A DNA stretch of 23,639 bases from a virus. The stretch is from positions 1-23,639 of IMG/VR virus record IMGVR_UViG_3300028025_000985. One strand, written 5' to 3'. How positions within the stretch are numbered: the stretch's first letter is position 1; each line of letters opens with the position of its first letter. Shown here piece by piece: positions 3,515 through 23,007 of the stretch. Made by a program: the position numbers and the translations under genes. The notes beneath the pieces are model-generated. The model was not told the DNA's origin and did not search any database. It was given only the letters and a program-made list of their open reading frames with translations.

Positions 3515-3531
3515 TATCCACCCATTTCGTT

Positions 3532-4211: not shown

Positions 4212-4228
4212 TTTATTATCCTTTGGTA

Positions 4229-4669: not shown

Positions 4670-4687
4670 TATCTCTCCATTATATCA

Positions 4688-5188
4688 TTAGACCGTATGT
4701 ATCGCTGGTTCATAAACAAGAAGTGAATCATATTCTCTAGTAATAGGATCACCCTTTAAGTATACCTCAACTGTGATTCTGTTTGGAGTATCAGATTGAT
4801 CAACTCCATTAATAAAAAATGTATCTGGAACTACTAAGGTAGCAGTGTTAGTTGCTACTCTATCTGCATACTTCCAGTCTCCTATGCCATCAGACTTACT
4901 CCATTTTACCCAAATATCATAATCTTTTGCTTGACGAATAGTATTAGCACCAATTTTAATTGTTACTGGGTCCCAGGCTACACGCACTGATCCACTTGAA
5001 GAAGAGATATTAATCTTTCCTGAAACATAGGTGTAGTTTGGGTCTACGCTATAGACAGAAGACCAGGCCGAAGTTCTATTCTTGTCTTCAGAGATTATTC
5101 TGTAACGCACACTGTAGGCTCCAGTTATGCTGTTGATTGTTGGTAAGTTATCCTTAGATATCTTGACCTTTTTAATTATCTCAGCCAT
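4688..5188 (-). CDS. Minor tail protein with fibronectin-III-like beta domain (putative)
   Basis: 166 residues, almost entirely strand-like. Features typical of a fibronectin-III or Ig-type sandwich include YSVRYRIISEDKNRTSAWSS near the start, VRVAWDPV in the middle, and YDIWVKWS followed by WKYADRVATNTATLVVP. These could represent one or two tandem modules. Such domains decorate phage tails and are thought to help in weak carbohydrate contacts on the host surface. The ATG overlaps the previous stop by one base (TAATG), implying coupled translation with the 374-residue gene. No enzyme motif is seen, and the fold assignment is by eye. Confidence 0.7.
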   Translation of the reverse strand: MAEIIKKVKISKDNLPTINSITGAYSVRYRIISEDKNRTSAWSSVYSVDPNYTYVSGKINISSSSGSVRVAWDPVTIKIGANTIRQAKDYDIWVKWSKSDGIGDWKYADRVATNTATLVVPDTFFINGVDQSDTPNRITVEVYLKGDPITREYDSLLVYEPAIHTV

Positions 5189-6312
5189 TATGTAACACCA
5201 ATAGAAAATCTAAACTCAATATAGTTGCTTGTATTAGGGGACTTAATGATAGACTCTGCTGTACTGTTTTGAATTACAGAATAGCCAGTCATTCCATACA
5301 GTGTGTTTACTGTTGCAATGTTTTCTAGTCTCATTGAGTCAAGTGCTACATAATAATCATCTGAAACAGTTCCACCATCAATAATGCTAACATAAATTTT
5401 TACAACATTAACAGCGTCCCACGTAAAGTTTGCACTTGTGTATAGATCCTGTAACTGCTTTGATACAACAACATATCTATTATTTTCTAGATCGTACTCA
5501 CCTTCGCCTGTCCCATCTGTTATCTCTGCTTCAAACCTTGCATACTCTCCAGTTCCAGCGTCGGTAGACGAAAAGTCTACAAGGATACGAACAGTATCTG
5601 GAGCAAGTCCTGAAGTTCCATCTTTATTAATAACAGAAAATGCTAATCTTAATTCATCTGTTGGTGAATTTTGAGAAAAGTTTGAACTTGGCTTTGTGTA
5701 GTGTATATGGTTTGAGCCCGTTCCAACTACAAAGTGTCCGCCTGTAACTGTAAGGGTTGCATCATCTCCACGCATAAGTATTGTATTATTTAAAAATCTA
5801 CATCTTTCAAACCTTAGTGCTCTAGATGTTTTATAAAATATTGAGTTATCAGCATTTGTTTGAAAAACCTTTAATGCTGTTGATATAACATTATCATCAG
5901 CAGTATCAAGGGCTGTTGAGATTGAAGTAATTGCAGTAGCAGCAGAAGATGTGTGGTAGTTCCAGTTCTCTGCACTTGTAAATGCAAAGACTGTCTTGCT
6001 ATCATATGCACCAGCAGAGGGGTTAGACTTTGCTGAAAATACCCCTACTTCTGTAATTTCATACCTTTCTTCTGCTGGTAACTCTGCTGTAAATACAATT
6101 TTATCAGTACCGTTTTCAGTAACAAAACCTCTAGAAGAGATGGGGACTCTTAGCATTTCAAACTCTAGGTTCTTTTTATCTGAGTAGTCTCCTAGAACAT
6201 CTGTGGTGTCTAGTGGTCGTGCTCCACAACCAATAGCAATAAAAGATGCATAGGCTGGTGCTTGTCCAAGTAGATATTTGCCTAAAATAGACTTTCCAGT
6301 ATTAGTTATCAA
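5188..6312 (-). CDS. Tail fibre / minor tail protein
   Basis: 374 residues. The N-terminal ~110 residues (MITNTGKSILGKYLLGQAP, FIAIGCGA, EERYEITEVGVFSAK) resemble the attachment domain found at the start of many tail-collar and fibre proteins, with the typical xxITEVGLF-like block. The remaining two thirds are strand-rich, with a segment (GEYDLENNRYVVVSKQLQD, then DDYYVALDSMRLEN) reminiscent of jelly-roll carbohydrate-binding modules. The start is TTG at 6310-6312: it overlaps the previous stop by 4 nt (TTGA) and GAGGGAG lies 4 nt upstream, and the next Met is more than 50 residues in. Likely role: part of the distal tail or side fibre that contacts the host. No catalytic residues are visible. 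Confidence 0.76.
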   Translation of the reverse strand: MITNTGKSILGKYLLGQAPAYASFIAIGCGARPLDTTDVLGDYSDKKNLEFEMLRVPISSRGFVTENGTDKIVFTAELPAEERYEITEVGVFSAKSNPSAGAYDSKTVFAFTSAENWNYHTSSAATAITSISTALDTADDNVISTALKVFQTNADNSIFYKTSRALRFERCRFLNNTILMRGDDATLTVTGGHFVVGTGSNHIHYTKPSSNFSQNSPTDELRLAFSVINKDGTSGLAPDTVRILVDFSSTDAGTGEYARFEAEITDGTGEGEYDLENNRYVVVSKQLQDLYTSANFTWDAVNVVKIYVSIIDGGTVSDDYYVALDSMRLENIATVNTLYGMTGYSVIQNSTAESIIKSPNTSNYIEFRFSIGVT

Positions 6313-6983
6313 GATACTCCCTCATTAAAATCCGTCTCATATATTGTACCACTTGTGGCAATTTGAATTTCTATCTGTTGATCTGGCTCTAAATTTACAG
6401 CCTCAATAACGAGGCTTCCTGTCAACTGATCTATGTACACGTAGTCCCCATTAGGACCTGTTCCGTCTAGTGGAATTTTATCGTCAAGTTTAATTGAAAA
6501 ATTAGCAAAATATTTATCTGATGTTGACTGAAGACTAACTATATTATTAGGGTTATATTGCTGTTCAATAGATGAAAGATTTCTAATAGGCTGATAACTA
6601 ATAGGTTGACCATTTACAGTATCTCTTCTAGCAATGCTTATTAACTCTTCTCCACCAATATCTTCAAAAATTAAATCTGCCATAATGCTTATTGGCACAA
6701 CTCCATCATCAAAAAGTATAATGTCTTTAGTTGCAGTCTTTACCTGTTTTGTCGTTGTTGTTGCAGTTGCAGTAGTTGTTGCAGGTGTTGGAGATACTGC
6801 TGGAGCAGAAGAAGTAGTTACAGTTTTTGATGTTGACTGATTGTTGGTAGTTGCATTAAGTTGTGCAACCATCGCATCAATTCTTTTTTGATAACCTGCT
6901 TCTTTAAGTACTCTAGACCCATCAGAAAAAAGTTCATACAGGTTGCCATCTGCACCAACCATAACTCCATTGCTTGTAGCCAT
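6309..6983 (-). CDS. Minor tail protein with Thr/Ser/Pro linker (putative)
   Basis: 224 residues from ATG at 6981-6983. This start is preferred to a GTG at 6995 because GAGGTG lies 4 nt before the ATG and the gap to the upstream stop is then 1 nt. The first ~40 residues (NGVMVGADGNLYELFSDGS) look like a small conserved cap. Residues about 43-88 are a low-complexity Thr/Ser/Ala/Pro linker rich in TT, TA and SP, likely flexible. The C-terminal ~135 residues are a compact strand-rich domain containing DIILFDDGVVPISIMADLIFED and LTGSLVIEAVNLEP. The gene lies between the large hub-type protein and the fibre gene and ends in a 4-nt overlap with the latter. Role inferred from position: an adaptor between tail tip and fibres. 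Confidence 0.72.
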   Translation of the reverse strand: MATSNGVMVGADGNLYELFSDGSRVLKEAGYQKRIDAMVAQLNATTNNQSTSKTVTTSSAPAVSPTPATTTATATTTTKQVKTATKDIILFDDGVVPISIMADLIFEDIGGEELISIARRDTVNGQPISYQPIRNLSSIEQQYNPNNIVSLQSTSDKYFANFSIKLDDKIPLDGTGPNGDYVYIDQLTGSLVIEAVNLEPDQQIEIQIATSGTIYETDFNEGVS

Positions 6984-6984
6984 A

Positions 6985-9900
6985 TTACACCTCACTCAAA
7001 TAGACAGTCATACTTGGACCATCTATGTCTCTTGTATATTCAATGTTGTAAATAACAAACCTAGTTGTAGGAGAAGAAACCATGTCAATTCCATTATCCT
7101 GATAATTAAGTGTAACAATATCTCCAAGTTGTAATGTTGGTACGCTAAAGATATTCACACCAACAGATCTCTTTGGTATCATTAGTTTATTTATAATCCA
7201 GCCCATAAGACTATTAGCAGAGTCTTGAGTTTGAATGTATGGGGCATCAATTGAGAACTCATTGTTTCCATAGATCATTCTGCTTTGCTTAATCTGATTA
7301 TACTTCTCTGCTTCAACATAGGGAGATGTAAGAACAGTTGTTCCTTCTAGTTCTGGGTCCGACTGGCTTGATCTCTTATTAAAGTATTCATCAACAGTTA
7401 ACTCATGTGTAGTGTCTTGTGTAAATGTTATACCCTGAATTCTTAAGTAATTGCCACTTGTATCATCAAGAACAATTGCTTTATCTGTAGCGTTAAAAAT
7501 CATAAACTCTGCACCATATGAATCAGCATAGAAGCCAGAGGTTGTATAACCCTTGATTCTGTTAAAGGTTGGAGACAATTGTGCATATAGTGCTGGGTAT
7601 GCACGATCATACTTAATGTCAAAATATGCACATTCACGCATAATGGTTCCAAACTCGTCAAAGTACATACTATATTTTGGAGGTTGTTGTGCGCTTATTC
7701 CAGAAAGGTATGTTGACTGAACAACTCCAGACATTGCATATTTTCTAAAAGACTCATTAAGGTCTATTGATTCATCACCAAAAACTTGTGCAATTGTGTC
7801 TGATGCTGTTGCTACAGTATTTTGTGAATAATTTTCAGATAATGCATAAATGTTTTCAAACATTATTCTAGAAGAGCCTCGTGTAAACAATGCCATGTTG
7901 TTATAAATAGGAAGTGGGTCTGTATCATCAACCACTTTAACTAGATTATTATTTATATACAGATAAAATCTTCTAGTCTTTCCAATATCCTTATACTCAA
8001 CTGAAAGATCATAAACTGTTGGAGTTGTTTGTGTTGTCATTCTATACTGCCCAGTAAAGGTACCATCGTCAACAGTAATCTTTGACAATCCTCCCCAAAG
8101 TTTTACTGGAATTGCGTCTGAGTTAGAATTATCTTTTTTAATCTTGTAAAACAAAACATTATGAATAACAACATCATCTGACCCATCAGCATTAGTTTTA
8201 AGATATGACTCAACGTTATTTTCTGTTAGCGCAACTATCTCAAAATAGTATCCGTTATTTGTTTCTGGATTAAGAAGTACCCCAAGACCTCCAGAACCTC
8301 CAGCAATGCTTACATTTTGATCTGTAAGAGATCCCGTAACTTGATAGTATGTACTGCTTCCTGCAGGTGTTTGACCTCTTGTCTGATTATTTTCAATCTT
8401 TCCAATTATTCGCATTCTTGTTCCAAAATGCTTATATGCATTGTTAAGTGGCTTATACACATATGAAACAAAGTCAATTGGAGTTTCTGTTGTTTTAAAT
8501 GATGGACCGTTCATAACAAGTGCAGAAGATTGAATTGTTCCAGTTCTTGTTTGACTAAATGCATTAACTTCTGTTTCTGTTTTACCACTAATAGCCATGA
8601 AGTTTCTTATGATGCTATTTCTTGTTGTCTGCTTTGCACGAGCAAGATCTACACCCGCAGTGCCAGTGGCAGTTGCTGGCAATACAGGACTTGGATCTGT
8701 AGTAAATAGATACTGAGACTTCATAGCACATCCACGGACATTATCGTTATTAGACCAGTAAGGGTCAATGCCTGCAGTGTGCTTTGATATTGTTGTTCCA
8801 AACTGTGCTCTACCGTGCTCCAAGACTGGACCATTCTTCATCTTTGTAATTCCACCTACTGTTTCATAGTATGGAACGGTATAAATTCTAATTCTTCCAG
8901 TAGGATAGATCTTTCCGTTAAACGGCAATACTGAAAAATACTTTTGATATTCTTCATTACTACTAATCCAGACATTGCTTGAGCCTTGTCTGTGTGTTGA
9001 CTTCCAGCGATCAATCGCTGTGCTTGCTTCTGCTTGAATCTTAGCCTTATCAGCCTCTGTCTTAGCCTTATCGGCATCTGCCTTAGCCTTTGCTTCAATA
9101 TCAGCAATAACAGATCCTGGGGCTAGTCTTCCTGGTTCTACAAAATATTGTTTTGAATAGTCTATAGTTCCATCAGTCTTTAGGTCATACCATAGCCCAA
9201 TTGTTACGCTAAACTCTGCAGCATCGTATTTAATAATTTCTCCATTAGAGTATAGGTGTCCAGTGTATCTTGTAAGCCAATAGACGTTTTCGCCTAGATC
9301 AATAATATTATTTGTTAATTCATTTTTAACAACTGTTGGTGCAACCGAAGGAACGTCTGATGCTATTGGCATTGCTCCTAGAACATAACTTCCTTGTGAA
9401 CTTGCTACCTCGTTAATTGTTTTAGTGTTTTCTGTGCCTGCGACTTCCCACAAAAGTGCAGGTTTATAAATCCAGGTCTTTTCTTGATCAACCATGCTTG
9501 CCTGACGAATACTCCCATAAGACCTTTGGATATAGCGAGTTGTATAGTTAATTTTTCCAGAGTTAAAAATCTTCTTGTCTTCTGATGCTATAGAAATAAT
9601 GTTAGGTAATTTTCCAGATGTTGCGTTTTCTATTACCCCAGTATCAGATTGATTATTAGAACCAGAGAGCGTAAAGACTTCTGATCTTTGTGCTGCAGTT
9701 GGCATCATATAATCTTTACTCATTATAACAAAGTTGTTATATTCATCAAAGAACATTGCAGTTTGTGTTGAAACTGCTAACTGATTGAGCACTTCTGCAA
9801 CATTTTGATCTGGTGCAATAAAGAAAAATGGAATTATTGGATCCTTTTCTCCAGCAACTCTTAGGAATGTATAGTTTGTAAATCCAATATAATCAAGCAA

Positions 9901-11832
9901 AAGAGTTATTGCATAACTTAAAGATGCTTCAGTTACAAGCATTCTTGGTGCTGGCATTGACTCAAAGTAAAAATACATATCCCGTAGACCCAAAGATAGG
10001 GTTCCACCATTGCGATCTACCTGCGGAAATCCTTCTGAGTAAAGAGTTTTAATTGGAATAAAATAGTCATATCCATTAACATTAATAACTTTTTCATAGA
10101 AATTAAACTTAATGTTTTTTCTAATATATTTATGGATAATGCTTGATGTATTGTTTGGGTTAAATGCTTGATCATCATCAAATAAAGAAATATCTCCAGT
10201 TGATGCAAGTAACTGTCCTACTGGCAAAGATGTTGACCCTAAGTCTGCAAGACTTTTGTTAATTCTAAAATCTAAAACCTTGTTAGAAATATCAACAACA
10301 AGTCTAGGAGACATTTCAATAAGGTCAAACCTAGAGTCAAATTTATTCATAGTATCTACAACAATGCGGATTCCACGAATATACTGAAATTCTCTATATA
10401 CCTTTTGAGCATCTGTCTCATTATTAAAATAAACTGGAGAAGTTACATCTTCTATAAAACTACTTTCATTATTAATAGTTTCTTCAGCAAGTTTCCAGCC
10501 ATACTGTGGGGTAAATGTTTCATACTCACCTGTGAGATTGTTCCAGATGTGGAATTCACCACGAGTATTGCTTGTAGATATTACTAAATATGCATAACCG
10601 TCAAATGCTAAGTCTGGAAGAAATGCTGATGAAGATAGTGTGCCCTGATAATTAAACCGTGATTTGTGCTCTTTTGGAAGGATTAGTCCATATTGCAATT
10701 CAACATAGCCGTCTGATCCAATTATTGGTGAACCGTTATCTCTAATACTTGATGGATTAAATGACTGAGCATCAACCCAACTGTTATTCTGTAAGTATTG
10801 AATCTTCCAGGTTACTGGTGTTGTTTTATAATCTACTCTATATAAAGGATCTTGAATTGATGTGGATGCACTTGCATATGGTCCAAGGTTAATGCTTCCT
10901 ACATTTGTTTGCATCTTAACGACAATCCTGTTTGCAGGAACAGGGTCTTTATATACTACAAACGGAGCAGCATCATGAATATAGTTTTGACTATTAGCCT
11001 TAATGTTTGCAACACCATACTCATTATTATTTTCTGTTCTGTAAGAAGTCCAGTAACGAAACTCATCATATCTTGACGACATGTAGTATCTAGGTCTTTG
11101 AGACATTGATTCATTTGAGTTATGAACAAAATTTCCTGGAAAATATAACAGTTTATTGATTCCAGATCTTGGTCTAAATGGCTTGATGCAATCCTCAAGA
11201 GAATAAAGCATCTTCATCTTTTCTTTTTTAGAATAGAATAGTTGTGGGTATCCAGAATTTGTATAACCATTGTCAACAGTTGTATCTGCATCTGTTGCTT
11301 TTGTATAATATCCATTTATGCCAAAAACATCATTTGTTGAAACAAAGTATGATTTCCAAGACTCAATCCCTGTTCCTGTTATTAGTTTAACAACAAACTG
11401 TGCAGATGTTTCTGCTGGCATAGAAAATATAGTATTCAGTCCAGAGGTTTTAATTAAAATTTCTTGTGAACTTGAATTATGTATGGTATATGTAATTCCT
11501 AGGCCAAGAGTGCTTACTACTGGAAGAACTACCTGATATGGAACATTATGAATTTTTGTTCCAGTGAAGACATACTCCTTGTTATCTTTTGCAAGTAGTG
11601 TTGTCTTTCCTTCGTTAACTGTCTCTACTGAAGTATATCCAATATCCAATTGATCAAAATTATTTGGCAAAGTCTTAAACTTAATATCATTGCCTTGTGG
11701 TCTATACCTATAGTTACCAATTTTAAAAATATTATCTGGCATATTCATATTCCACTCAGCCAGTACTAAAGACTGCAACTGAACTGTTGAAGAAGACTCT
11801 AGGTGTGTCTTTAAATCACTACTTACAAACAC
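6985..11832 (-). CDS. Large minor tail protein (hub/adsorption type) with a LamG-like domain
   Basis: 1615 residues. The N-terminal third holds beta-sandwich-like segments (for example TPVTWKIQYLQNNSWVDAQS, discoidin-like). The middle contains regions like those of tail hub proteins. At about 905-945 a short Ala/Lys/Asp heptad coiled coil (DADKAKTEADKAKIQAEAS) acts as a spacer. Residues about 1125-1325 look like a LamG/concanavalin-type lectin domain, with YYFEIVAL, then VYDLSVEYKD and RRFYLYINNNLVKVVDDTD. The last 65 residues (LQLGDIVTLNYQD, FVIYNIEYTRDIDGPSM) match the closing domain of siphovirus hub proteins. The start is GTG at 11830-11832 with AGAGG 6 nt upstream, 1 nt after the previous stop. 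Position after tape measure and Dit-like genes suits a Tal-like central tip protein that binds the host surface. Confidence 0.82.
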   Translation of the reverse strand: MFVSSDLKTHLESSSTVQLQSLVLAEWNMNMPDNIFKIGNYRYRPQGNDIKFKTLPNNFDQLDIGYTSVETVNEGKTTLLAKDNKEYVFTGTKIHNVPYQVVLPVVSTLGLGITYTIHNSSSQEILIKTSGLNTIFSMPAETSAQFVVKLITGTGIESWKSYFVSTNDVFGINGYYTKATDADTTVDNGYTNSGYPQLFYSKKEKMKMLYSLEDCIKPFRPRSGINKLLYFPGNFVHNSNESMSQRPRYYMSSRYDEFRYWTSYRTENNNEYGVANIKANSQNYIHDAAPFVVYKDPVPANRIVVKMQTNVGSINLGPYASASTSIQDPLYRVDYKTTPVTWKIQYLQNNSWVDAQSFNPSSIRDNGSPIIGSDGYVELQYGLILPKEHKSRFNYQGTLSSSAFLPDLAFDGYAYLVISTSNTRGEFHIWNNLTGEYETFTPQYGWKLAEETINNESSFIEDVTSPVYFNNETDAQKVYREFQYIRGIRIVVDTMNKFDSRFDLIEMSPRLVVDISNKVLDFRINKSLADLGSTSLPVGQLLASTGDISLFDDDQAFNPNNTSSIIHKYIRKNIKFNFYEKVINVNGYDYFIPIKTLYSEGFPQVDRNGGTLSLGLRDMYFYFESMPAPRMLVTEASLSYAITLLLDYIGFTNYTFLRVAGEKDPIIPFFFIAPDQNVAEVLNQLAVSTQTAMFFDEYNNFVIMSKDYMMPTAAQRSEVFTLSGSNNQSDTGVIENATSGKLPNIISIASEDKKIFNSGKINYTTRYIQRSYGSIRQASMVDQEKTWIYKPALLWEVAGTENTKTINEVASSQGSYVLGAMPIASDVPSVAPTVVKNELTNNIIDLGENVYWLTRYTGHLYSNGEIIKYDAAEFSVTIGLWYDLKTDGTIDYSKQYFVEPGRLAPGSVIADIEAKAKADADKAKTEADKAKIQAEASTAIDRWKSTHRQGSSNVWISSNEEYQKYFSVLPFNGKIYPTGRIRIYTVPYYETVGGITKMKNGPVLEHGRAQFGTTISKHTAGIDPYWSNNDNVRGCAMKSQYLFTTDPSPVLPATATGTAGVDLARAKQTTRNSIIRNFMAISGKTETEVNAFSQTRTGTIQSSALVMNGPSFKTTETPIDFVSYVYKPLNNAYKHFGTRMRIIGKIENNQTRGQTPAGSSTYYQVTGSLTDQNVSIAGGSGGLGVLLNPETNNGYYFEIVALTENNVESYLKTNADGSDDVVIHNVLFYKIKKDNSNSDAIPVKLWGGLSKITVDDGTFTGQYRMTTQTTPTVYDLSVEYKDIGKTRRFYLYINNNLVKVVDDTDPLPIYNNMALFTRGSSRIMFENIYALSENYSQNTVATASDTIAQVFGDESIDLNESFRKYAMSGVVQSTYLSGISAQQPPKYSMYFDEFGTIMRECAYFDIKYDRAYPALYAQLSPTFNRIKGYTTSGFYADSYGAEFMIFNATDKAIVLDDTSGNYLRIQGITFTQDTTHELTVDEYFNKRSSQSDPELEGTTVLTSPYVEAEKYNQIKQSRMIYGNNEFSIDAPYIQTQDSANSLMGWIINKLMIPKRSVGVNIFSVPTLQLGDIVTLNYQDNGIDMVSSPTTRFVIYNIEYTRDIDGPSMTVYLSEV
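9039..9101 (-). repeat. 21-nt tandem repeat, three units, encoding coiled-coil heptads
   Basis: Three 21-nt units lie head to tail at 9039-9059, 9060-9080 and 9081-9101. The first two differ at 2 of 21 bases; the third matches well only in its first half. Each encodes one heptad with an Ala-Lys core (ADADK, TEADK, IQAEA contexts). This looks like local heptad duplication lengthening a coiled-coil spacer inside the 1615-residue tail protein. Confidence 0.75.
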
Positions 11833-11833
11833 A

Positions 11834-12520
11834 TTAAACCTCTTCCAGCGTTACTGAAATATTCCAAAGATCATGGTTGCTTCCACCACGCTTTACAACA
11901 GTATAGTTAAAGTCTGCAATATAAACCTGAATAACTTGATTATATTGACCAAGATGTTTATACGCAGCGTTTGCATCTTCTACTGTTGGTCCAAAATTGC
12001 TATACTTATCATATGCTAGATACATCCAGAATGGTCCTGTGTGTGTTTCATACCAATCTAGAATGTCTACTCCACCAGCACCACCGTCTGCAGTATATTC
12101 ATTTGCTGCAGAATATGTTGTACCTTCTGCATTTCTAGTAGCATTTTGTAGTGATAAAGATGGTTTACCGTTCTCATCAAATTCTGGCGACTGGCTATGA
12201 GATCTTGAAGGAAGATTATCCCAAGACCAAGAAATTTCAAGTTTATCTGCAATATGGTATGAGCGCATGCGACCATTAATTGTTCTTTGGCGTTGCTCTA
12301 GTCTTTTAGGGGTAAATCTTATCTCACTACGATTATGGTCAGATAATACTAGGAACTGATCTACTAGAGATGCGTTTGTGCCTGCCTCAATCTCTGCCCC
12401 AATTTCATACCCTGTAGGCACGTAGAGGCCTTCTGAGAGCGTTCCTGCGTTATTAGACCAAAGGATACCCTGCGGTCTCTGATACCGTTTTCTACCCGTC
12501 ATATAGTCTGCTGTTGCCAT
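11834..12520 (-). CDS. Minor tail protein in the distal-tail (Dit) position
   Basis: 228 residues, directly downstream of the tape measure gene with a one-base stop/start overlap (TAATG) and one nt before the large hub-type gene. In siphoviruses this slot encodes the distal tail protein that joins the tube to the tip. The protein is soluble and strand-rich with a hydrophilic middle (PSRSHSQSPEFDENGKPSLS). The C-terminus (VIQVYIADFNYTVVKRG, then LWNISVTLEEV) resembles the final strands of Dit-like proteins, which commonly end in a statement of the form 'W-x-V-x-LxEV'. No cysteines or catalytic motifs are present. The Dit label is inferred mainly from synteny; the assignment as a tail protein is more secure. 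Confidence 0.77.
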   Translation of the reverse strand: MATADYMTGRKRYQRPQGILWSNNAGTLSEGLYVPTGYEIGAEIEAGTNASLVDQFLVLSDHNRSEIRFTPKRLEQRQRTINGRMRSYHIADKLEISWSWDNLPSRSHSQSPEFDENGKPSLSLQNATRNAEGTTYSAANEYTADGGAGGVDILDWYETHTGPFWMYLAYDKYSNFGPTVEDANAAYKHLGQYNQVIQVYIADFNYTVVKRGGSNHDLWNISVTLEEV

Positions 12521-15500
12521 TATCTCTGCCCTCTAAGTCTTTGTGAATCAATATACTTAATCTCTGCCATTACTACCTTGGCAATGTCATCTGCACTAGC
12601 ACTTGTATTATTTACGCTAATTCCTACATTGTAATTATACACCCTGCTGGAGTTATCCGCTACCATTGTTGAAGATCCTGCTCCAACACTAGTAGTATTA
12701 TTATCCATTGCAGAATATGTTGGAGCCTGAAGAGACTTGTATGTTCCATTATTTAATGACTGAAGCATTGCTCCATATTGATCAGCAACATTTTTCTTTA
12801 CTATAAACTCACCAGGTGTCAGCATAGCAGGAACTGTGTCTGTTCCTCTTGCAACAAATCCACCTTCTGCATAGTATCCCATGCTCTTTAAAATTGATTG
12901 CTGTGAAGAAAGGGACATACTTCTTAGCCAGTCATTTTTGCCAAGACCTTCTGCAAATGATCCCTTTCTATTTGGATCTGTATTTGTTTGTCTTTTCTTT
13001 GCGTCTTCTTCAGCAATTTTTGCAAGTCTTTCTTTTTCTGCCTTTTCAGCAGCGGCTTTAGCCTTTGCTTCTGCATCAGGATCTGGGTATGTTCCTATCT
13101 TTAATCCAGCATCTGTAATTCCCTTTGACACTGTTCCCCATGCAGTAGCAACTCCTGTAACTGATGTTGCCATTTTATCAATGTCTAGTATCTGTGCATC
13201 ATAAGCATCATTGAGTGCAGCAACTGCATCCTTAACAGTCCCCCATTCTTCAGCAGTCATTCCCTGAAGTTCAACATACTTTAATTGTTTTTCAACAGAG
13301 AGTTCGTGTGCAGCAACTAACTTATTTCTTGCTTCAATCTCTTTCTCAAGAGGGGCAATAAGTGTTTCTTGAACTCTTGCAATCTCATCAGTTAACTGCT
13401 TTCTTGTATAGTCTTTTCCATTAATCTTTGTTGTAAGATTATCAATTTCTTTTTGTCTAGCAATTTCCATTGCAGATCTTTGTTCATCAAGAGCATCTCC
13501 AGCACTTCTTGATGCAACCTCTGCCTGCTGTGCAGAATATTCTGCTGCTGCCTGTGCTGCTGCAGAAATATCTCCTTGAGTAAGAGCATCAGCAAGTGTT
13601 AGTTGGTTTTGCTGCTGTGCTGCAATGTCTTCATTAATAGAAAGAACATCGTCTAAAGCCTTAGCCTGAGCATCAATTAACTTAATCTTATCATCATACT
13701 TATCATTGACAGATGTTTCAAGTTTCTCAATAGCAGAAAGCCCATCGTTGTAATCGTCAATCTGGTCTTGATAGGTTTGCTGAAGCGCTTCCTTCTCCTT
13801 AGTAACAAGGTTATACTGTTCAACTGACATTTTATTTGCTGTTCTAAAGGCAGACTGTGATGCCAAGTTAATTCTTGCTGCTTCTGCTGCAAACTTTTGA
13901 TCTAATTTTGTTGACTTAGATTCTTGCATTTGTTGTAATTCAAACAATACTTTCTTATAGTCTTCTGCAGACTTAATAAGTTGAGGGAACTCATCTTTTA
14001 TTTTACCAGTAGAGGAAAGCACTCCTTCTACCCATTCTGATTTAGAAATTATTTGAAGGATTGTTTCATATGCAATACCCTCATTTTTTAATTTCTTAAA
14101 TGCATCTATTTGCATTTGAATCTTATTTGTTTCTTGTGCCTGATTTACTACTCCCTCTTTGGCTCTTAGCGCTGCACCCTGCTTATTTATTTCAATTAAG
14201 CCTGCAAGTTCATCCTTTGAGTATTGAACTCCATTTGCAATATCAGCAACAAATGACTGGTTTTTCATAAGATCGTTTGTTTCTGCTATAGTAAAGCCAT
14301 ACTCTCTAGATAATGATATTAGTGAGTAGTATGCATTAACTCTGTCACGAATTTCATCAACAGCCTTCTTCTCATCCTCAATATATTCACCAATAGTTGC
14401 TGTTCTAAATGCACTATTAATATTAATAAAGTCTTCTGTAAGTCCTGAGATTCTTCCATCTTTGCCAACCTTAAACAATGTCTTTGACCACAAGACAAAT
14501 TGTTCTGGATCCATGTTTACTAGAATTTCACGGAAGTCATCTGACAAACCTCTAATGTTTCCGTCAAGAGCAAGTTTATCAATTGCTTGAATGGCGCCTA
14601 GTTGTTTATCAAGCGACTTATTGCTTGCAACACTGCCTCCACCTTTACCACCAAGATCTCCGCCAAGGAACTTCTTAATAGACTTTAGAGGATTTAGTGC
14701 ATCAATTGAAGAATCCTTTACAATCTTTAGTCTTTGAGCAAGATCCATTAAGAATGAATCATCTCTCTTTGTCTTGTTAGCATTTGCATTATTATTGCTA
14801 TTATTGTTAGTAGTTGTTGGTGTTGCAACGCCAAATATCTGTGTTCTAAACTTGTCCATTGCTGCTTTTCTTGCTGCCTCAATATTTTTTGGATCAGTTG
14901 TAAACATTTCACGATCAAGTTTTTGTTGTCTATTAAAGGTTCTCATGCTTTCTTTGCTTCCAAACATCTGCTGTCCAGCATACTTTGGATTTGCCTTTTC
15001 AAACGCCGCATCTAGTTCTGTCTTTAACATAGCATCAAAACTATCGCTAACTTCAATAGATGCCATTGTAAAGATTGCCTGGAACTGTAACTCTTTAGGA
15101 AGTTTTTCTATTTCCTTCCAGTCTCTGATAGCAGAGTCTAGAGTTAAGTTCTTTCCTGGGCCACCACCTTCTTGTTGCATTTTGATTAATGCCTTAAGAT
15201 CTACTTGGCCATTAGGGAATTGCTTTTTAAGAGCAGCAATCTCTTTACCTGTTTTCTTAAGGTTTGCAATATCATTACTATCTGTTTCAAGACTTAGGTC
15301 AATACCAATAAAGTCTGGAATTTTTGCAAGTTCTTCAATTGCTGAATATGTTGCATCTGAATCTGCTTTATTCATTTGCTTAACTGCTATCACTAAATTT
15401 CTTTGATTAGTTTCATCTGGAATCAGTGTCAGGAGTGTAGATAGTCTCTGAAGTCCCTCGGTGCCCTGAACAGAAACAATTGACTGAAGATTTTTAGTAA

Positions 15501-18500
15501 TATCTCCACCTGTAGCAGTTAAAGTCTTAAGCATAATAGAGGCTTCATTTGGTGTTAAAACATCAGATGTTACTAATGTTGATATCTGAAGTGTTACTTC
15601 GTCATTACCAATATCATCTAACTCACTCTGCAAAGCACTAGCCTGTGCTTTAAGTGCTGCATTATCTTTAAACTTTTCTTGCATTGCAGTAGAGAATGCT
15701 TCCATGTACTTATCACGAACTTGTCCACGACCAGAACCAAGTGGGCTTAGTCTTTCTCCTATAGTCGGACCACTTACACCTTGATAACTAGTGACAGCGC
15801 TCTGTAGTATATTCCCTTGAGTTTCTCTTAGTGTTTTAAGTCCAGAAGTCTTTTTATCTTGTAATGCTAAAATCTCTTGGTCTACAGCAGCACGCTCTTG
15901 TTCTGTTTTTAGCGTCTTCTTCTTAAGTTCTAGATTTGCAATTGCTGTATCATACTGTGAAGTTAATGCATCAATACTTCCCTGTGACGCTGCAAGGTTT
16001 TGAGATACTATGCCCTGAACAATACCAGCAGCCTTACCTATGGCAGCCTTTTCTTTGCCCTTCTGCCACATTCTAATTCCTGTTTCAATTCCACCGAATA
16101 CAACTGTAGAGATTGCTAAACCAACTAATCCAGGAATTGCTCCAGCACCAGTTGCTGCAGTTGCTCCTGAAGCAAGTTGTGTTCCAACTCTAACATTTCT
16201 TGCAATTGTAAGTGCCTTGCTTACCTTTGATGCATCTGATGCAACCTTTGCAACCTTTGCTTCCGCAGCAGCGATTGCACCAGCATTTGATATTGCACCC
16301 ATCATTGCAGTAGCCTGCATACCTGCACGTGCTGCTACATAACCTCCACCAATTGCTCCTACTCCAAGTTGACCAGCCTCGCCTAGATCTATTCCACGTT
16401 GTCTGTCTGCAACCTTGTTCAGATTTCCAAGAGCAGCATCCTGCAGACGGGTATTGGTTGCTATTAGGTCAAGTTGAACCTTTAGTCCATTCGTGGTGAG
16501 GTTCTCTCCATTAGGACCAAGAAGTTCAATTAATCTTCCTCTTACATCAAGTTCAAGTTTTGCGTCTTTGAGGTTTCTAGTAAGTGCAACCGCAATTGAT
16601 TCTGCCTGTACCACAGTTAGAACTCCCTGAGAAACAGCAGTTCCAAGTTGGCTTACTAGTGAGTCAACTGCAGGACCAGTTCCAAAATCTTTTACTGTTT
16701 GTTCAAAAGATGTTTTAAGATTTTTACCAAAATCGCTTTGCTCTAGAACATTATTTCCAAACTCCATGCTGACTGGAACAATGTCCATATTTCTTGCTTT
16801 TCTTTTTGCATCAGCAATCTGTGTAACTGAAACAGTATTAGTGATCTTTCCAAGTTCTTCAAGTCTGCTGGTTGTCATCGTCATAGACTTTGCTTGTTTT
16901 TCACCTTCAATAATATTTTTCTTAATTGTTGAAGACTGCATCTTAAATATAGCAGCCAAGCCAGCAGCAGATGCTAGTAGAAGTTTTAATGGGCTATTAA
17001 GCATTGGAAGAATCATAGGTAGCATAGATGCTCCCATGATCGCTGTCATATTCTTTGCTACCCAACTTTCTTCATTCTTTTGAGCATATGCACTAGCAAC
17101 CATAGGAACCATCATGGCAGCCATGCCAACACCCATCATTCTTTGGCTGGTCTGCATTCTCTTGTCTGTACGCATATTAGTGCGTTCTTCTACAGTTGCT
17201 TTTCTTAATTGTTTTGTTTCTTGGTCAACTATTTGATCTGGTACCCGACCATAACCACTCATAAATCCACGGAAACCACGTGTCTTATCTGCTTCTGCAA
17301 AACTGGTAGATAGGTTTTGAGTTCTAGTATTTAGAACCTTAACCCCGCCTGCTGTCTTAACTGCTGTCTTTGCAAGTGCTTCCATTCCACGAACAGATGC
17401 TGCTGTTGCTGCAGCCATTCTTGCTGCTGCTCTTTCTGCAGCCCTTGAGACTATAGGTGCTGCATAACGTTGAGCACGATTTATTCTTCCTCGCCAGTTA
17501 GGTCTGACTGGTGATGGTCCATCAAAGTTTTGATTAGGAAGTGGACGGGGGACTCCAGTTTTCTTTCCAGTTATGTGACCTGGAATCTTATCATCAATAA
17601 TTCCGTCAACAAGCGGTGCATACTTTTGAGCCATGTCTTTTGGAATAACCGCTTCTCCAGGTGTGAGCATTGCAGGAACAGTATCCTTGTTTCCTGTTCC
17701 AGGAACAGAGAACACTCCCTTATTGTAATAATAAGGAGTTGTATTAGCATGACCAGACTGACGCTCTCTTTGGTCTCTATCTTGTTTTTGCTTAAGAATT
17801 TGTGCTGCAGATAAAGGCTTCTTAACTTGTGGAACTACAGATGAGTGGACTGCATGATACTCTGCCCAGTTAACGTTTTTACCTTCTTCAAGGCGTAGGA
17901 TCATTCGGTTATAAATTTCTTGTTCTTTTGGATCAAGACCCATTCCCGCAATTGATTTTCTCAATCTAGGAAGTGTTTCTTCAATTTCTCTTATCATTGC
18001 TGCATGGTATTGAGTAGGAGTCATGCTTCTAGCAACATCTAATGTTGACTCTGCAAAGAATCTTTTTGCTCCTCCCTTTACACCAAGAAGGTTAATCTTT
18101 GCCTGATCTGCCATTGACGGCATGCTGTCTGCATAAACTCTTACGCCCGATGCTCTCTCAAAGACTCCCGCTGTTCCAACGTCTGCAAGAACATTTCCTG
18201 AAAGATTAGACATTTGCAAGTCTTTGTCTCCACGAAGTGATGATGCCACTAATTGTTTAATATACTCATCCTTTGTAAACTTACCAGTCATGCTTGCAAA
18301 TTGCTCTTCAACTGGAGATTCTAATACAAGAAGCCTTCTCTTCTTTTGTGGATCAGTTGGATCAATCATTACTTTAATTGTCTGCTTTGGTGCTTGTAGG
18401 CCATGAGCCTCTCTTGCAATCGTCGTTGCTCTCATTTCTGCAAGGGCTGCAACCTCATCTAGAACTGGCTTTACAAATACAGACTCTCCTGCACCATTCT

Positions 18501-21500
18501 TATAAATTCCTCCAACACCAGGCACTGGGAATGAGTGTCCAATAGTTGCAGAGACTTGCTCTCCGTATGTAGTTGTTGGCAATCCAGCAAAACGACTCTT
18601 CTCTACACCAGCACTGATCTGCTGCATTAATGACTGCTGATCTCTCTTTACGGCAACCTGCTTTGCAGTCAATGGCATACCTAGGAATAGTGGATTCTTT
18701 GGTACTGCAGCAATTCCTGCCATGTACCCTGGAACTCCTGGTAGAGAACTAATATCTTCCTTTGTCATACCAGAACTCTTTAGTAGTGAGTACTGGCTAG
18801 ACTTTCTTCCAAAGTTTTTTCCACCTGCATCATAGAATCCAGTAGCAAGTCTTCTTTCAAATATTGCCTGAGCAACCTTTTGAGATCCAGATTTATTCTG
18901 CATTGCAGAAAGGGCTGCAACCATTGTTTCTGCCTGGTCTCTTCTTGCTACGTGAATTCCACCAATAATTCCCTTGTTTTCTTCAAAGAACTTATTTAAG
19001 AATGTGTGCTCTTCAAAAATGTTAGATGGTCTATTTCTTGTTGTTGCATTAAATAATTGAGAGTCTGCCTTTTGTCTATGGCTAAATGCTGGAGCATAAC
19101 TAAAATCTTCTTTTCCTCTTCTAGAACCTCTTGATACTGTAATAAGATCATCTAGGGTTAATCCATAGGCATTTGGTCCGCCTGCAATGCTCTTAAGATA
19201 TGAAATCTCTGCTTCATGCTCTGCAACAAGTGCTTGATACTCTGGGCTATTCTTGTAAAGTTTTCTGCGTGATGTAACTTCTTTTGGAACGGCTCTAGTT
19301 CTTGTTCCTTGCCCATACGGAGTAATGCTCTTAAGTCTTGATGGAGTAAGGACATTGCCAACCAGTTTTCTGTCTGGCTTAGATATTGCAGCCCGAACAG
19401 TTCTTAGAATATCATCTGGAGAATCTCCTCTTGCACGTTGGAACTCTTCATTCTTAATAAGTTCTTTCTTAAAACTTGCAACCTTCTTTTGATGTACAAA
19501 AAATGTTACTCCTCCACCAAGATCAACAGGAACAAGACCCTTTGCATTTGGTGTTCCAATCTTTAGTGCAGACAGAGTTGAAAATTGCTGCTCAACTAGT
19601 GATAGAGGATTTGCAACTCGTCCACCCATTGCTCTTGCTGCGCCAAAACTTAGTTTGCCAACAACTGTTGGTTCAGCAGCCATCATTGGGAATACTGAAC
19701 GAATACCATACATATGTCCTGGAACCGAGTCTCCAACAATTGCATTAATCAAACCACCATGCTTTTCAACCATTCCCTTTGGAATAACTGCTTCACCTGG
19801 TGTAAGCATTGCTGGTACTGTATCTGTGTTGCCTGTACCTGGTACATATGACACACCCTTGTTATAACGCTTTGGAGCAATGCCACCACCCATAGGGGCT
19901 TTTGGCATAAACATTCCAGGATTATTCTTAGAGAATGTCATCATTGCAGCATTTGCTTGCTGATAAACAGCAGTCAAAGCCTTAAGACTTGATGCTTCAA
20001 GTACATATGCTGCAGAAAGGTTCTGGTGACTTGTTGTCATTGCATTAGTTACTGCTGTGTTCTCAAGTTCTTCTTGAGTCATATAGCGTGTATTTAATGC
20101 TGCATCTTTAGTTCCGTATGCTAATCTTTGATACCCTTGGCGAACAAGGTTAAACATTTTCATAAGGTTTGCAATACCATTGGCTACAAGACCAACAGTC
20201 ATAAGAACTACTGGACCAATACCAGCAACAGCACCAATAATGATACCAACAATCTTCTTAAAGCCTTCTGGCATTTCGTTAAACTTGTTAAACAATTTAA
20301 CAAAGAATTCAATAACTGGTGTGAGGATCTTAGCAAAGAGTTCACCAATTGGAGCAATAGAAGCCTTAAGTTTTTCAATCTGAGATTGCATCTTATTCAT
20401 TGCAGAATTTTCTTGAGTCTTCATTTCTCGCTGACTTAGGATTGCAAGTTCTTCGGCTGATGCAACCGACAATTTCATAACTCTGTTTGCTTGAGTTCCT
20501 TCTTTTGTAATGTTATTAAACATTGCAGAAAGTCTTGCAAACTGATACTTACCAAAAATCTTTTCAATAATCTGACCACGCTGAAGATCGTTGAGTGTAC
20601 TAAGAGAACTTGCAAACTGCATAACAGTTGCTTTAAGGTCTCCAGCATTACTTTCAACAATTGCTTTAAGGTTAATTCCAAGTGCGTTTGTTGCCTTTAC
20701 AGCAGCAGTAGATGGGTTAATTAAAGATGCAAGACCAGATTTAAGTGCGTTTGCGCCTTGTGCTGCGCTTACGCCTCCTTCTTTCATTGCTGTAAGGAAT
20801 ACAGTTAAGTCTTTAACATCTCCACCAAGTTGTTGAATAATTGGACCAACTCTTGGAATGGCTTCTGTCATATCCTCAAGGGTGAGGACTGTCTGGTTTT
20901 CAACTGCGTTCAGGAAGTCAATATTCTTTCCAAGTTCTGCTGCAGTAATTCCAAAAGCATTCTTAAGTGCAACAATTGTTTCTAGTGATTTATCTTGAGC
21001 AATGCCACCAAGAACTGCAAGTTTGTTTGCTTGTCTTACTACTTCTTCTAAGTCTTTTCCAGCGTTACCCGCTGCTGCAGCATCTGCTGCTGTCTTGATA
21101 GTCTCAGATACCTTAAGACCATACTTTGTGTACTCATCTGCAATCTTCTGCATATTTTTGAGGGCAGTTTCTGTTTCGCCCTGTGTTGTAAAAATTTCTC
21201 CATAAACCTTCTTAAAACGAATAGCCTGAGTTTCAATCTCTTTAAAACTCTTGATTGCTGAAGCAGCAAACATAGCCAGAGGTATTGTAAAACCAACCAT
21301 CAACTGACGGCCAGCCCACTGGGTATTCTTACCAAAGTTTAGAAGTCGTACAGAACCATCATTAAGAAGTTTATTCATTATCTGCTGACGCTGAATAACC
21401 ATCTGCATTCTTGTTAGTTGATCATTATAATTTAACTTCTTTGGGGTCATACGCATTGCATTTAGCGCACCCTGGGCATCTTTACCCAATCCTACATATT

Positions 21501-21879
21501 GAGTCTGTAGAGTCTTTACTCTCTTTTGTACGAGACTGCTTACTGTCTCAAATTCTTTACCGAAAAATCTTCCAAAAGTTCTGGAAGAGGCCATACTATA
21601 TCTATAGTATTCTCTAAGCGATAACTTGCCAGCATCAAGTCTTCTTGAGAACTGATCAACAGATGTAGACATTTTTGCTGTTGAAGCAGTAAAGGCTCCA
21701 GTAGCATTTACGTTATGAAGAAGTGATCTTGTGAAGTCTGCCTGTGCTGCTGCTGCTGCACGTGTTCCAACAACCATGGAACGGTTAAATGCGGATAACT
21801 GCTTATCCAGTCCACGAAGTGCAGACATGGCTTGAACAGTATCAATATTTATAAAAATATTGCTATTTATATCCGCCAT
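12520..21879 (-). CDS. Tail tape measure protein (3119 residues) with embedded kinase-like region
   Basis: The largest gene in the window. It sets tail length and probably enters the host envelope during DNA ejection. Residues ~185-570 form a TP901-1-type tape measure core (alpha-helical, PRVGPIIQQLGGD, GGVSAAQGANALKSGLASL) ending in a strongly hydrophobic segment at about 537-570. Further hydrophobic segments lie at about 1580-1600, 1608-1643, 1834-1871 and 1911-1935. Residues ~2050-2950 are mostly charged helices likely to form coiled coils. A motif centred on DTVPAMLTPGE occurs three times (about 679-703, 1392-1416, 3011-3031), and residues ~1110-1290 look kinase-like. ATG at 21877-21879 has only a weak site close by; an AGGAG lies 15 nt upstream. 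At the usual ~0.15 nm per residue the full length would predict a tail near 470 nm, less if the inserted region does not span the tube. Confidence 0.96.
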   Translation of the reverse strand: MADINSNIFINIDTVQAMSALRGLDKQLSAFNRSMVVGTRAAAAAQADFTRSLLHNVNATGAFTASTAKMSTSVDQFSRRLDAGKLSLREYYRYSMASSRTFGRFFGKEFETVSSLVQKRVKTLQTQYVGLGKDAQGALNAMRMTPKKLNYNDQLTRMQMVIQRQQIMNKLLNDGSVRLLNFGKNTQWAGRQLMVGFTIPLAMFAASAIKSFKEIETQAIRFKKVYGEIFTTQGETETALKNMQKIADEYTKYGLKVSETIKTAADAAAAGNAGKDLEEVVRQANKLAVLGGIAQDKSLETIVALKNAFGITAAELGKNIDFLNAVENQTVLTLEDMTEAIPRVGPIIQQLGGDVKDLTVFLTAMKEGGVSAAQGANALKSGLASLINPSTAAVKATNALGINLKAIVESNAGDLKATVMQFASSLSTLNDLQRGQIIEKIFGKYQFARLSAMFNNITKEGTQANRVMKLSVASAEELAILSQREMKTQENSAMNKMQSQIEKLKASIAPIGELFAKILTPVIEFFVKLFNKFNEMPEGFKKIVGIIIGAVAGIGPVVLMTVGLVANGIANLMKMFNLVRQGYQRLAYGTKDAALNTRYMTQEELENTAVTNAMTTSHQNLSAAYVLEASSLKALTAVYQQANAAMMTFSKNNPGMFMPKAPMGGGIAPKRYNKGVSYVPGTGNTDTVPAMLTPGEAVIPKGMVEKHGGLINAIVGDSVPGHMYGIRSVFPMMAAEPTVVGKLSFGAARAMGGRVANPLSLVEQQFSTLSALKIGTPNAKGLVPVDLGGGVTFFVHQKKVASFKKELIKNEEFQRARGDSPDDILRTVRAAISKPDRKLVGNVLTPSRLKSITPYGQGTRTRAVPKEVTSRRKLYKNSPEYQALVAEHEAEISYLKSIAGGPNAYGLTLDDLITVSRGSRRGKEDFSYAPAFSHRQKADSQLFNATTRNRPSNIFEEHTFLNKFFEENKGIIGGIHVARRDQAETMVAALSAMQNKSGSQKVAQAIFERRLATGFYDAGGKNFGRKSSQYSLLKSSGMTKEDISSLPGVPGYMAGIAAVPKNPLFLGMPLTAKQVAVKRDQQSLMQQISAGVEKSRFAGLPTTTYGEQVSATIGHSFPVPGVGGIYKNGAGESVFVKPVLDEVAALAEMRATTIAREAHGLQAPKQTIKVMIDPTDPQKKRRLLVLESPVEEQFASMTGKFTKDEYIKQLVASSLRGDKDLQMSNLSGNVLADVGTAGVFERASGVRVYADSMPSMADQAKINLLGVKGGAKRFFAESTLDVARSMTPTQYHAAMIREIEETLPRLRKSIAGMGLDPKEQEIYNRMILRLEEGKNVNWAEYHAVHSSVVPQVKKPLSAAQILKQKQDRDQRERQSGHANTTPYYYNKGVFSVPGTGNKDTVPAMLTPGEAVIPKDMAQKYAPLVDGIIDDKIPGHITGKKTGVPRPLPNQNFDGPSPVRPNWRGRINRAQRYAAPIVSRAAERAAARMAAATAASVRGMEALAKTAVKTAGGVKVLNTRTQNLSTSFAEADKTRGFRGFMSGYGRVPDQIVDQETKQLRKATVEERTNMRTDKRMQTSQRMMGVGMAAMMVPMVASAYAQKNEESWVAKNMTAIMGASMLPMILPMLNSPLKLLLASAAGLAAIFKMQSSTIKKNIIEGEKQAKSMTMTTSRLEELGKITNTVSVTQIADAKRKARNMDIVPVSMEFGNNVLEQSDFGKNLKTSFEQTVKDFGTGPAVDSLVSQLGTAVSQGVLTVVQAESIAVALTRNLKDAKLELDVRGRLIELLGPNGENLTTNGLKVQLDLIATNTRLQDAALGNLNKVADRQRGIDLGEAGQLGVGAIGGGYVAARAGMQATAMMGAISNAGAIAAAEAKVAKVASDASKVSKALTIARNVRVGTQLASGATAATGAGAIPGLVGLAISTVVFGGIETGIRMWQKGKEKAAIGKAAGIVQGIVSQNLAASQGSIDALTSQYDTAIANLELKKKTLKTEQERAAVDQEILALQDKKTSGLKTLRETQGNILQSAVTSYQGVSGPTIGERLSPLGSGRGQVRDKYMEAFSTAMQEKFKDNAALKAQASALQSELDDIGNDEVTLQISTLVTSDVLTPNEASIMLKTLTATGGDITKNLQSIVSVQGTEGLQRLSTLLTLIPDETNQRNLVIAVKQMNKADSDATYSAIEELAKIPDFIGIDLSLETDSNDIANLKKTGKEIAALKKQFPNGQVDLKALIKMQQEGGGPGKNLTLDSAIRDWKEIEKLPKELQFQAIFTMASIEVSDSFDAMLKTELDAAFEKANPKYAGQQMFGSKESMRTFNRQQKLDREMFTTDPKNIEAARKAAMDKFRTQIFGVATPTTTNNNSNNNANANKTKRDDSFLMDLAQRLKIVKDSSIDALNPLKSIKKFLGGDLGGKGGGSVASNKSLDKQLGAIQAIDKLALDGNIRGLSDDFREILVNMDPEQFVLWSKTLFKVGKDGRISGLTEDFININSAFRTATIGEYIEDEKKAVDEIRDRVNAYYSLISLSREYGFTIAETNDLMKNQSFVADIANGVQYSKDELAGLIEINKQGAALRAKEGVVNQAQETNKIQMQIDAFKKLKNEGIAYETILQIISKSEWVEGVLSSTGKIKDEFPQLIKSAEDYKKVLFELQQMQESKSTKLDQKFAAEAARINLASQSAFRTANKMSVEQYNLVTKEKEALQQTYQDQIDDYNDGLSAIEKLETSVNDKYDDKIKLIDAQAKALDDVLSINEDIAAQQQNQLTLADALTQGDISAAAQAAAEYSAQQAEVASRSAGDALDEQRSAMEIARQKEIDNLTTKINGKDYTRKQLTDEIARVQETLIAPLEKEIEARNKLVAAHELSVEKQLKYVELQGMTAEEWGTVKDAVAALNDAYDAQILDIDKMATSVTGVATAWGTVSKGITDAGLKIGTYPDPDAEAKAKAAAEKAEKERLAKIAEEDAKKRQTNTDPNRKGSFAEGLGKNDWLRSMSLSSQQSILKSMGYYAEGGFVARGTDTVPAMLTPGEFIVKKNVADQYGAMLQSLNNGTYKSLQAPTYSAMDNNTTSVGAGSSTMVADNSSRVYNYNVGISVNNTSASADDIAKVVMAEIKYIDSQRLRGQR
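12787..12849 (-). repeat. TPGE motif copy 3, near the tape measure C-terminus
   Basis: Encodes residues 3011-3031: RGTDTVPAMLTPGEFIVKK. It is preceded by YYAEGGFVA, comparable to the YNKGV lead-in of the other copies. It shares the DTVPAMLTPGE core but has FIVKK where the others have AVIPK. This form is common near the ends of tape measure proteins. Confidence 0.85.
17632..17706 (-). repeat. TPGE motif copy 2 in the tape measure protein
   Basis: Encodes residues 1392-1416: VPGTGNKDTVPAML then TPGEAVIPKDM. It is preceded by YNKGVFS, parallel to YNKGVSY before copy 1, and followed by a similar block ending PGH (KIPGHITG versus SVPGHMYG). The repeat unit is therefore about 50 residues. It lies just after the kinase-like region. 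Confidence 0.88.
18010..18552 (-). other. Kinase-fold (HipA/PI-kinase-like) domain inside the tape measure protein
   Basis: Residues ~1110-1290 of the tape measure protein. The order of elements is that of an atypical protein-kinase fold. A Gly-rich strand pair GGIYKNGAGESVFVKP supplies K1137 as candidate ATP-binding Lys. A helix with E1142/E1148 leads into ATTIAREAHGLQAP, followed by a strand and hinge (RLLVLESPVEE). Then come the block DLQMSNLSGNVL (D1220, N1225, N1229) and ADVGTAGVFERASG (D1233), close to the 'D-x-GG-x-L-x-FRA-x-G' ending of the kinase-like domains found in some phage head and MuF-type proteins. Assigned by eye. The catalytic loop is short and activity cannot be judged. 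Confidence 0.52.
19771..19845 (-). repeat. TPGE motif copy 1 in the tape measure protein
   Basis: Encodes residues 679-703: VPGTGNTDTVPAML then TPGEAVIPKGM. It matches copy 2 at 23 of 25 residues, but many third codon positions differ, so it is not a recent DNA duplication. It lies just before the inserted kinase-like region. Confidence 0.88.
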
Positions 21880-22262: not shown

Positions 22263-22292
22263 ATTATAGCATAAGAGAGGGATCTCTGTCAT
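22263..22292 (-). promoter_or_regulatory. Probable sigma70-type promoter for short chaperone and tape measure genes
   Basis: The minus strand carries ATGACA (22292-22287, 5 of 6 to the -35 consensus), an 18-nt spacer ending TATGC, and a perfect TATAAT (22268-22263) with TG extension. It overlaps the last codons and stop of the long chaperone gene. There are 26 nt from the -10 to the ATG at 22236, identical to the element before the SSB gene. Confidence 0.7.
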
Positions 22293-22998
22293 CTTCATAA
22301 TCTAGTCCAAGCCCAATTCCGAAGCCTAATTGCTTTGCTTTTGGACCTTGTAGTGACAGCACATCATCTGAATTATCAGCCTGACCTTTAGAAAATACTC
22401 TAGCCTTCATGTCTTCCCACTCTTTCTGGCCTCTATCTTTACCAGACTCCTTATCTAAATCTACACCCTGCATTGCTGCTAAAAATTTCTTTTCTTGATA
22501 ATCTAAATCTCTCATTACTTCTAATGTAGACATGAGTTCTGGCATAGATAGTGATCTTTCTAATTCATCATAATCTTTATAAATGCCGAGCAAAAATATT
22601 TCAGATTCCAACTTGGCTAAATCTAAACTCTTCCAAGTAACACCTTCTTTGTCTGCTTTTGATTTTAATGATTTTTCTGCCTGATCTTTAATTGATTCAT
22701 CAGAGTCTTCTTTAACCTTAATGCCAGCAGCAAAGTCTGCTATAGAGTAGACTGTAGGCATATCAAAATTATCCTCAATGTCTTCTACGCTACCAGATAA
22801 CGATGGGTAATACTGTTTCATAGCAACCCTTACGCATTCTGTAATAATATGCAAAGAGTCTTGCTCATTTTGTACAGTCTGCATTCCGTCAAACTTCTCC
22901 ATGAACTCACGAAGATACTTGATCTTTAAAGGTGACATTTCTATATGAATGCCATCAACTGTTTCAACTGTTTTTGTAGAATAAACTATAGTAGCCAT
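22264..22998 (-). CDS. Tail assembly chaperone, long form (gpGT-like) in one reading frame
   Basis: 244 residues from ATG at 22996-22998; this start aligns with the start of the short paralogue (MATIV versus MATTV), unlike a TTG two codons upstream. Residues 1-95 are homologous to the short form. A Lys/Glu/Ser-rich hinge (about 96-120) then leads to a C-terminal domain containing LESEIFLLGIYKDYDELER, SMPELMSTLEV and DLDYQEKKFLAAMQGVDLD. This resembles the T-type extension that most siphoviruses reach only by programmed frameshifting; here no frameshift is needed. The long form would bind the tape measure protein and recruit tail-tube subunits. There is no convincing Shine-Dalgarno, and a -10 element ends only 9 nt before the ATG, so a leaderless mRNA is likely. 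Confidence 0.84.
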   Translation of the reverse strand: MATIVYSTKTVETVDGIHIEMSPLKIKYLREFMEKFDGMQTVQNEQDSLHIITECVRVAMKQYYPSLSGSVEDIEDNFDMPTVYSIADFAAGIKVKEDSDESIKDQAEKSLKSKADKEGVTWKSLDLAKLESEIFLLGIYKDYDELERSLSMPELMSTLEVMRDLDYQEKKFLAAMQGVDLDKESGKDRGQKEWEDMKARVFSKGQADNSDDVLSLQGPKAKQLGFGIGLGLDYEDDRDPSLML

Positions 22999-23007
22999 AT
23001 ACAATCT

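Follow-up and report, generated by a model that had tools for sequence, protein, structure and literature searches.

Tape measure proteins (TMPs) occupy the lumen of the phage tail and are ejected into the cell envelope ahead of the DNA, and effectors derived from TMPs of contractile injection systems carry a nuclease or modules with other functions (PMC11126660, PMC13277306). The proposal there is that a globular domain is accommodated in the tube until it is ejected and takes up its fold only then (PMC11126660, PMC13277306). In Tme and Sle1, the carrier is TMP-like and belongs to a bacterial injection system, and the functional module (nuclease, deaminase-like) is C-terminal and varies between relatives; a kinase module is not reported (PMC11126660, PMC13277306). 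Delivery with the virion has also been proposed for MuF/ART proteins of phage heads (PMC9503650). Kinase modules have been described in polyvalent proteins of Verrucomicrobia-Chlamydia and Bacteroidetes (pro)phages, as kinases without the C-terminal subdomain and with no mention of TMPs (PMC5512222).

Here, we analyzed a virus record of 23,639 bases (the window), whose largest ORF encodes a TMP (PF10145, 94.4 bits against a Pfam cut-off of 33.2) with a predicted kinase-like domain in its interior. As in Tme and Sle1, the carrier is TMP-like and the module varies between relatives, whereas the module is internal here. The window also stands apart from TMP-derived effectors of contractile injection systems, being a phage whose genes include replication and tail functions (PHROG) and having no DUF4157 match among the 11 of its proteins scanned with Pfam. 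With the polyvalent proteins it shares a kinase module within a multidomain phage protein; several helices follow the DVG site in our kinase model. Ten further ORFs scanned (window positions 184-840, 2997-12520 and 22264-23004, minus strand), including one for a 1615-aa minor tail protein, gave zero Pfam matches.

A first-pass annotation of the window had placed the ORF, its coordinates and its residue numbers correctly (K1137, D1218/D1220, N1225 and D1233, where given). The roughly 700-residue block that it treated as one unit is made of two parts, domain A and the kinase (Table 1).

Table 1. Positions of the TMP and its elements in the window
Feature	Residues	Coordinates	Strand	Evidence or conservation
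Tape measure protein, 3119 aa		12520..21879	(-)	PF10145 PhageMin_Tail, E 1.1e-26; PHROG tape-measure families, best 5e-90
Conserved N-terminal part	1-665	19885..21879	(-)	Common to related IMG/VR phages and, at a greater distance, to phages of Streptomyces (Stanwilliamsviridae)
Motif copy 1, VPGTGNTDTVPAMLTPGE region	672-722	19714..19866	(-)	Motif HMM
Domain A	~740-1065	18685..19662	(-)	In 20 related TMPs, kinase-bearing or kinase-free; fold not recognised
Kinase-fold cassette	~1090-1345	17845..18612	(-)	AlphaFold2 model, pLDDT 86.6, pTM 0.82; fold matches; presence/absence
beta3 lysine	K1137	18469..18471	(-)	115/115
Helix-C glutamate	E1148	18436..18438	(-)	114/115
Catalytic loop	D1218-K-D1220-LQMS-N1225	18205..18228	(-)	D1218 (part of the scan pattern), D1220 and N1225, 115/115
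DVG site, metal-binding aspartate	D1233	18181..18183	(-)	115/115
Motif copy 2	1385-1435	17575..17727	(-)	Motif HMM
Conserved downstream region	1601-1800	16480..17079	(-)	Right-hand anchor for the variable zone
Motif copy 3, near C-terminus	3003-3048	12736..12873	(-)	Motif HMM

Predicted fold and active site of the kinase domain

The structure of the kinase domain was predicted with AlphaFold2 from an alignment of the window's domain and 20 relatives (alignment A1), which resulted in a confident model (Table 1). As seen in the model, K1137 lies on strand beta3 and E1148 on helix C, and these are followed by the catalytic loop, a short hairpin, D1233 and a helical C-lobe. The Gly-rich stretch corresponds to GVGG at residues 1121 to 1124. 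VIA-align matched the model best to CotH (Z 11.9; 215 residues aligned, 3.9 Å) and next to Helicobacter pylori CtkA (11.2), followed by PI4KIIalpha (9.9), bacterial HipT (9.5 and 9.3), LepB (9.2) and HipA (9.1), and at lower scores by VPS34 (8.9), Golgi casein kinase/Fam20C (8.7 to 8.9) and actin-fragmin kinase (8.4). Altogether, 64 chains reached a Z of 8 or more. Domain A, passed through the same tools, gave a moderate model (pLDDT 68.8) and a best Z of 4.3, and therefore provides a useful negative control for the kinase matches. Foldseek also returned kinases, with modest E-values (best, 4.5e-4) and low TM-scores (about 0.2 to 0.36 among the PDB matches listed), both counting against the main explanation considered below. 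The best viral matches (BFVD) were giant phage proteins annotated as ADP-ribosyltransferase (ART), portal or PI3K/PI4K-like, such as the PI3K/PI4K-like protein of HSTV-2. These proteins have a similar fold, and the analogy with phage head proteins drawn in the first-pass annotation holds at this level, whereas the carrier in the window is the tail TMP. Overall, the confident model together with the intact catalytic set gives good support for the kinase-like two-lobe fold suspected from the sequence, of the HipA/PI4K/CotH/Fam20 type and with a predicted active site.

We then considered 115 distinct domains, namely the window's own and 114 others with 31 to 62% identity to it. Loss of K1137, D1220/N1225 or D1233 was looked for among them, and these residues were kept throughout (Table 1); E1298 and R1329 are likewise invariant (115/115). 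The patterns used to scan the collection include R1216-G1217-D1218, so that these three residues are ascertained by design while the others are unbiased, and the first 21 members, reached pattern-free through the TMP N-terminus, exhibit the same invariant residues. Over 92 pairs, the kinase has a median dN/dS of 0.116, a value that shows purifying selection. Judged from this alignment, the kinase pattern picked out in the window is conserved and is not due to chance. The Lys-Glu pair, the catalytic Asp with an Asn at +5 and the metal-binding Asp have a spacing shared with the CotH, CtkA, HipA, PI4KIIalpha and Fam20C families. In particular, HipA, CotH and PI4K kinases have the same step as D1220 to N1225 (+5); that from N1225 to D1233 (+8) is short relative to HipA or PI3K, and this counts against the main explanation considered below.

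The predicted model thus shares its two lobes with CotH, CtkA, HipA/HipT, PI4KIIalpha and Fam20C, but the domain differs from all of them in having no detectable sequence similarity, a shorter N-to-D hairpin and a location inside a TMP. By sequence, no match was found in Pfam, PHROG or solved structures. Neither HipA_C (PF07804) nor CotH (PF08757) gave a Pfam hit in 21 members, the family-model searches for both being empty (for HipA_C, that of the window) with control genomes positive, and PI3/PI4 kinase (PF00454) gave none in the 21 members up to an E-value of 10. A profile search of PDB sequences returned chance hits only, three divergent kinase domains had no real match among GenBank phages by tblastn, and a pattern-limited scan of the genome collection with the kinase alignment returned no bacterial relative. 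Since no Pfam family matched, including HipA_C, CotH and PI3/PI4 kinase, the kinase is classed by its fold only and as a member of none of these; on the basis of the model, it is a sequence-novel family of predicted atypical kinases that Pfam and PHROG annotation misses. As far as the tools show, a kinase within a TMP is unreported, none having been found in the open-access literature (subscription papers and preprints lay outside the search).

Distribution of the kinase among tape measure proteins

Viral contigs scanned with a single sequence, either the whole block or the kinase alone, gave no hits, and relatives were reached first via the TMP N-terminus and then via the alignment. The N-terminal search yielded 80 loci, with the kinase region present in 23 of the fetched TMPs. 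A profile scan of IMG/VR with alignment A1 yielded 361 encoding stretches, and another, with the most divergent member in the lead, yielded 307, 80 being kept from each. In all, 181 kinase ORFs were examined, which contain 114 unique domains besides that of the window and never two kinase copies in one ORF. The TMP N-terminus is also present on 176 of them; four of the other five start at a contig end, and the fifth is the frame-split copy L145. The kinase is restricted to TMPs in every fetched N-terminally complete ORF, L145 aside. Its position is internal, with a median start at 34% of the TMP length, which counts against cargo delivery. In L145 (5193-10112), the kinase lies in a separate ORF that is frame-shifted from the ORF of the TMP N-terminus, due to either a sequencing error or a real split gene. 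This locus was dropped as a kinase-free case, since its kinase sits in the shifted ORF at the contig end.

Among TMPs found irrespective of the kinase, 22 of 66 scorable proteins carry it (window included) and about two thirds do not, a distribution that requires no fewer than 8 gains or losses on the N-terminal tree. In collinear TMPs with 88 to 91% identity at the N-terminus, the kinase is an insert of ~260 to 325 aa that is either there or not. For example, L016 is without residues ~1041 to 1350 of L013 (91% N-terminal identity), the flanks resuming just before motif 2, and L026 and L021 (89%) differ by an insertion at the same place. Between L032 and L058 (88%), the insert spans ~966 to 1285 and the second motif is not nearby. 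In close relatives, motif 1 and the conserved region that follows it are ~500 to 580 aa apart in kinase-free TMPs versus ~820 to 910 aa in kinase-bearing ones. Across these aligned proteins, the kinase is shown to behave as a cassette that is optional and sits in the TMP's variable middle. No other known enzyme was found by Pfam in 63 variable regions.

The kinase and the TMP N-terminus have partly separate histories. The kinases of L126 and L109 are 71% identical versus 35% for their N-termini, and those of L013 and L015 are 40% identical versus 95%. A kinase-only swap between L013 and L015 was considered and rejected, since profiling shows that the whole center, residues 745 to 2615, differs. 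These two proteins are nearly identical over the ~745 residues at the start and the ~550 at the end, and their ~1900-residue center is diverged, with 12 to 60% identity in most segments compared, suggesting a wholesale exchange of the TMP center.

As described at first pass, two near-identical motifs flank the block: the TVPAML of the motif VPGTGN-[TK]-DTVPAMLTPGEAVIPK falls at residue 687 in one copy and at 1400 in the other, a spacing of 713 residues. A third, more diverged copy of the VPGTGN-DTVPAMLTPGE type, overlooked in that reading, is found at residue 3015. In most TMPs, kinase-bearing or kinase-free alike, a motif profile placed one copy immediately downstream of the conserved N-terminal part and another close to the C-terminus, and a copy directly downstream of the kinase in part of the TMPs only, many relatives (e.g., L032, L040 and L050) having none close after it. 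The motif is also present in Gordonia phage TMPs. The suggestion that its copies mark domain or processing boundaries did not hold: processing sites were rejected on the motif profile and the collinear TMPs, and the comparison of related TMPs, which bore out the presence or absence of the kinase, did not bear out the motif copies as edges of the variable block. In the proteins compared, the motif is a general TMP element and not a marker of kinase excision.

Candidate roles of the kinase

Since the TMP fills the tail tube and leaves ahead of the DNA, the kinase would be carried in the virion, and a kinase that is optional, conserved, catalytically complete and confined to TMPs fits the logic of TMP-derived effectors. 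In our analysis, cargo delivery explains the observations best, though it is about as likely as not (roughly 0.5): an atypical HipA/CotH/PI4K-like kinase, encoded as an optional TMP cassette and catalytically competent, would travel in the virion, refold and phosphorylate a host target. The kinase would ride in the lumen, probably unfolded or elongated, refold at or inside the host membrane, and use host ATP to phosphorylate its target, such as a component of defence, the envelope or translation, within the first minutes of infection. The size of a folded kinase, which we estimate at 4 to 5 nm, counts against this explanation, as such a domain would hardly fit several times over in the tail lumen. 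Somewhat more tentatively, the domain may represent an interchangeable, internal, tail-delivered counterpart of the head-delivered MuF/ART effectors, with the TMP serving as ruler, channel former and effector carrier. Were the kinase to be delivered, the tail itself, and not the head, would be the route by which hundreds of uncultured phages inject an enzyme, which would add a further role for TMPs and provide a natural model for delivering proteins by tails. Two questions also become testable, namely whether a folded insert is counted in the length of the tail and which part of the TMP reaches the cytoplasm.

The leading alternative has the kinase act in the cell that produces the phage, where it could phosphorylate tail proteins, chaperones or the TMP during tail assembly, or regulate tail maturation. 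Its occurrence only inside TMPs, which has it made with the tail, and its internal position would suit assembly. Nevertheless, the majority of scorable related TMPs are kinase-free, some being otherwise collinear, and tail assembly would thus not generally depend on the kinase; we consider this role unlikely, although a modulatory one is unaffected by the argument. A polymorphic-toxin or exclusion module resembling MuF toxins, directed against competing bacteria or superinfecting phages, might be expected from the mosaic distribution and from the matches to giant phage proteins (ADP-ribosyltransferase, portal), but Pfam found no MuF domain in the TMP and the kinase is internal, not C-terminal, making this quite unlikely.

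A structural explanation, in which a nucleotide-binding or folded spacer sets tail length or plugs the tube and catalysis is irrelevant, could draw on the TMP lengths of relatives (1668 to 4268 aa), as an insert of ~300 aa would change the length ruler. A spacer is not expected to keep the K, D, N and D residues that are invariant at 31 to 62% identity, and these, with a dN/dS of 0.12, point to catalysis; this explanation is very unlikely. The failure to match any known kinase family by sequence would also agree with a chance resemblance, in which a normal helical spacer of the TMP was mistaken for a kinase; the probability of this is close to negligible as it is contradicted by the confident model, the consistent matches to atypical kinases and the invariant catalytic residues.

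Possible hosts and domain A

Among isolated phages, both the TMP and the DnaB helicase point to Streptomyces phages of ~130 kb (Stanwilliamsviridae) as the nearest relatives, which hints at actinobacterial hosts. Their TMPs are akin at the N-terminus, with about 26 to 33% identity, and the four that were fetched (~2130 aa) are all kinase-free. The sole match in the genome collection, L245 (CAINGU010000031.1, a 110-kb contig), has an N-terminus with 37% identity, is kinase-free and comes from a bin labelled as a cyanobacterium; the contig is possibly a phage co-binned in a metagenomic bin. The range of TMP lengths given above is that among the relatives of one family and is wider than a plain dependence of tail length on TMP length would predict.

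Domain A (~330 aa) adjoins the kinase, which follows it in the window, and the order is reversed in the L007/L093 group, where the kinase precedes a domain-A-like stretch. Domain A was considered as a candidate second enzyme; its model is moderate, and no match exceeded the Z value reported above. It evolves fast, with Asn228 and His242 (numbering of alignment A3) being nearly invariant.
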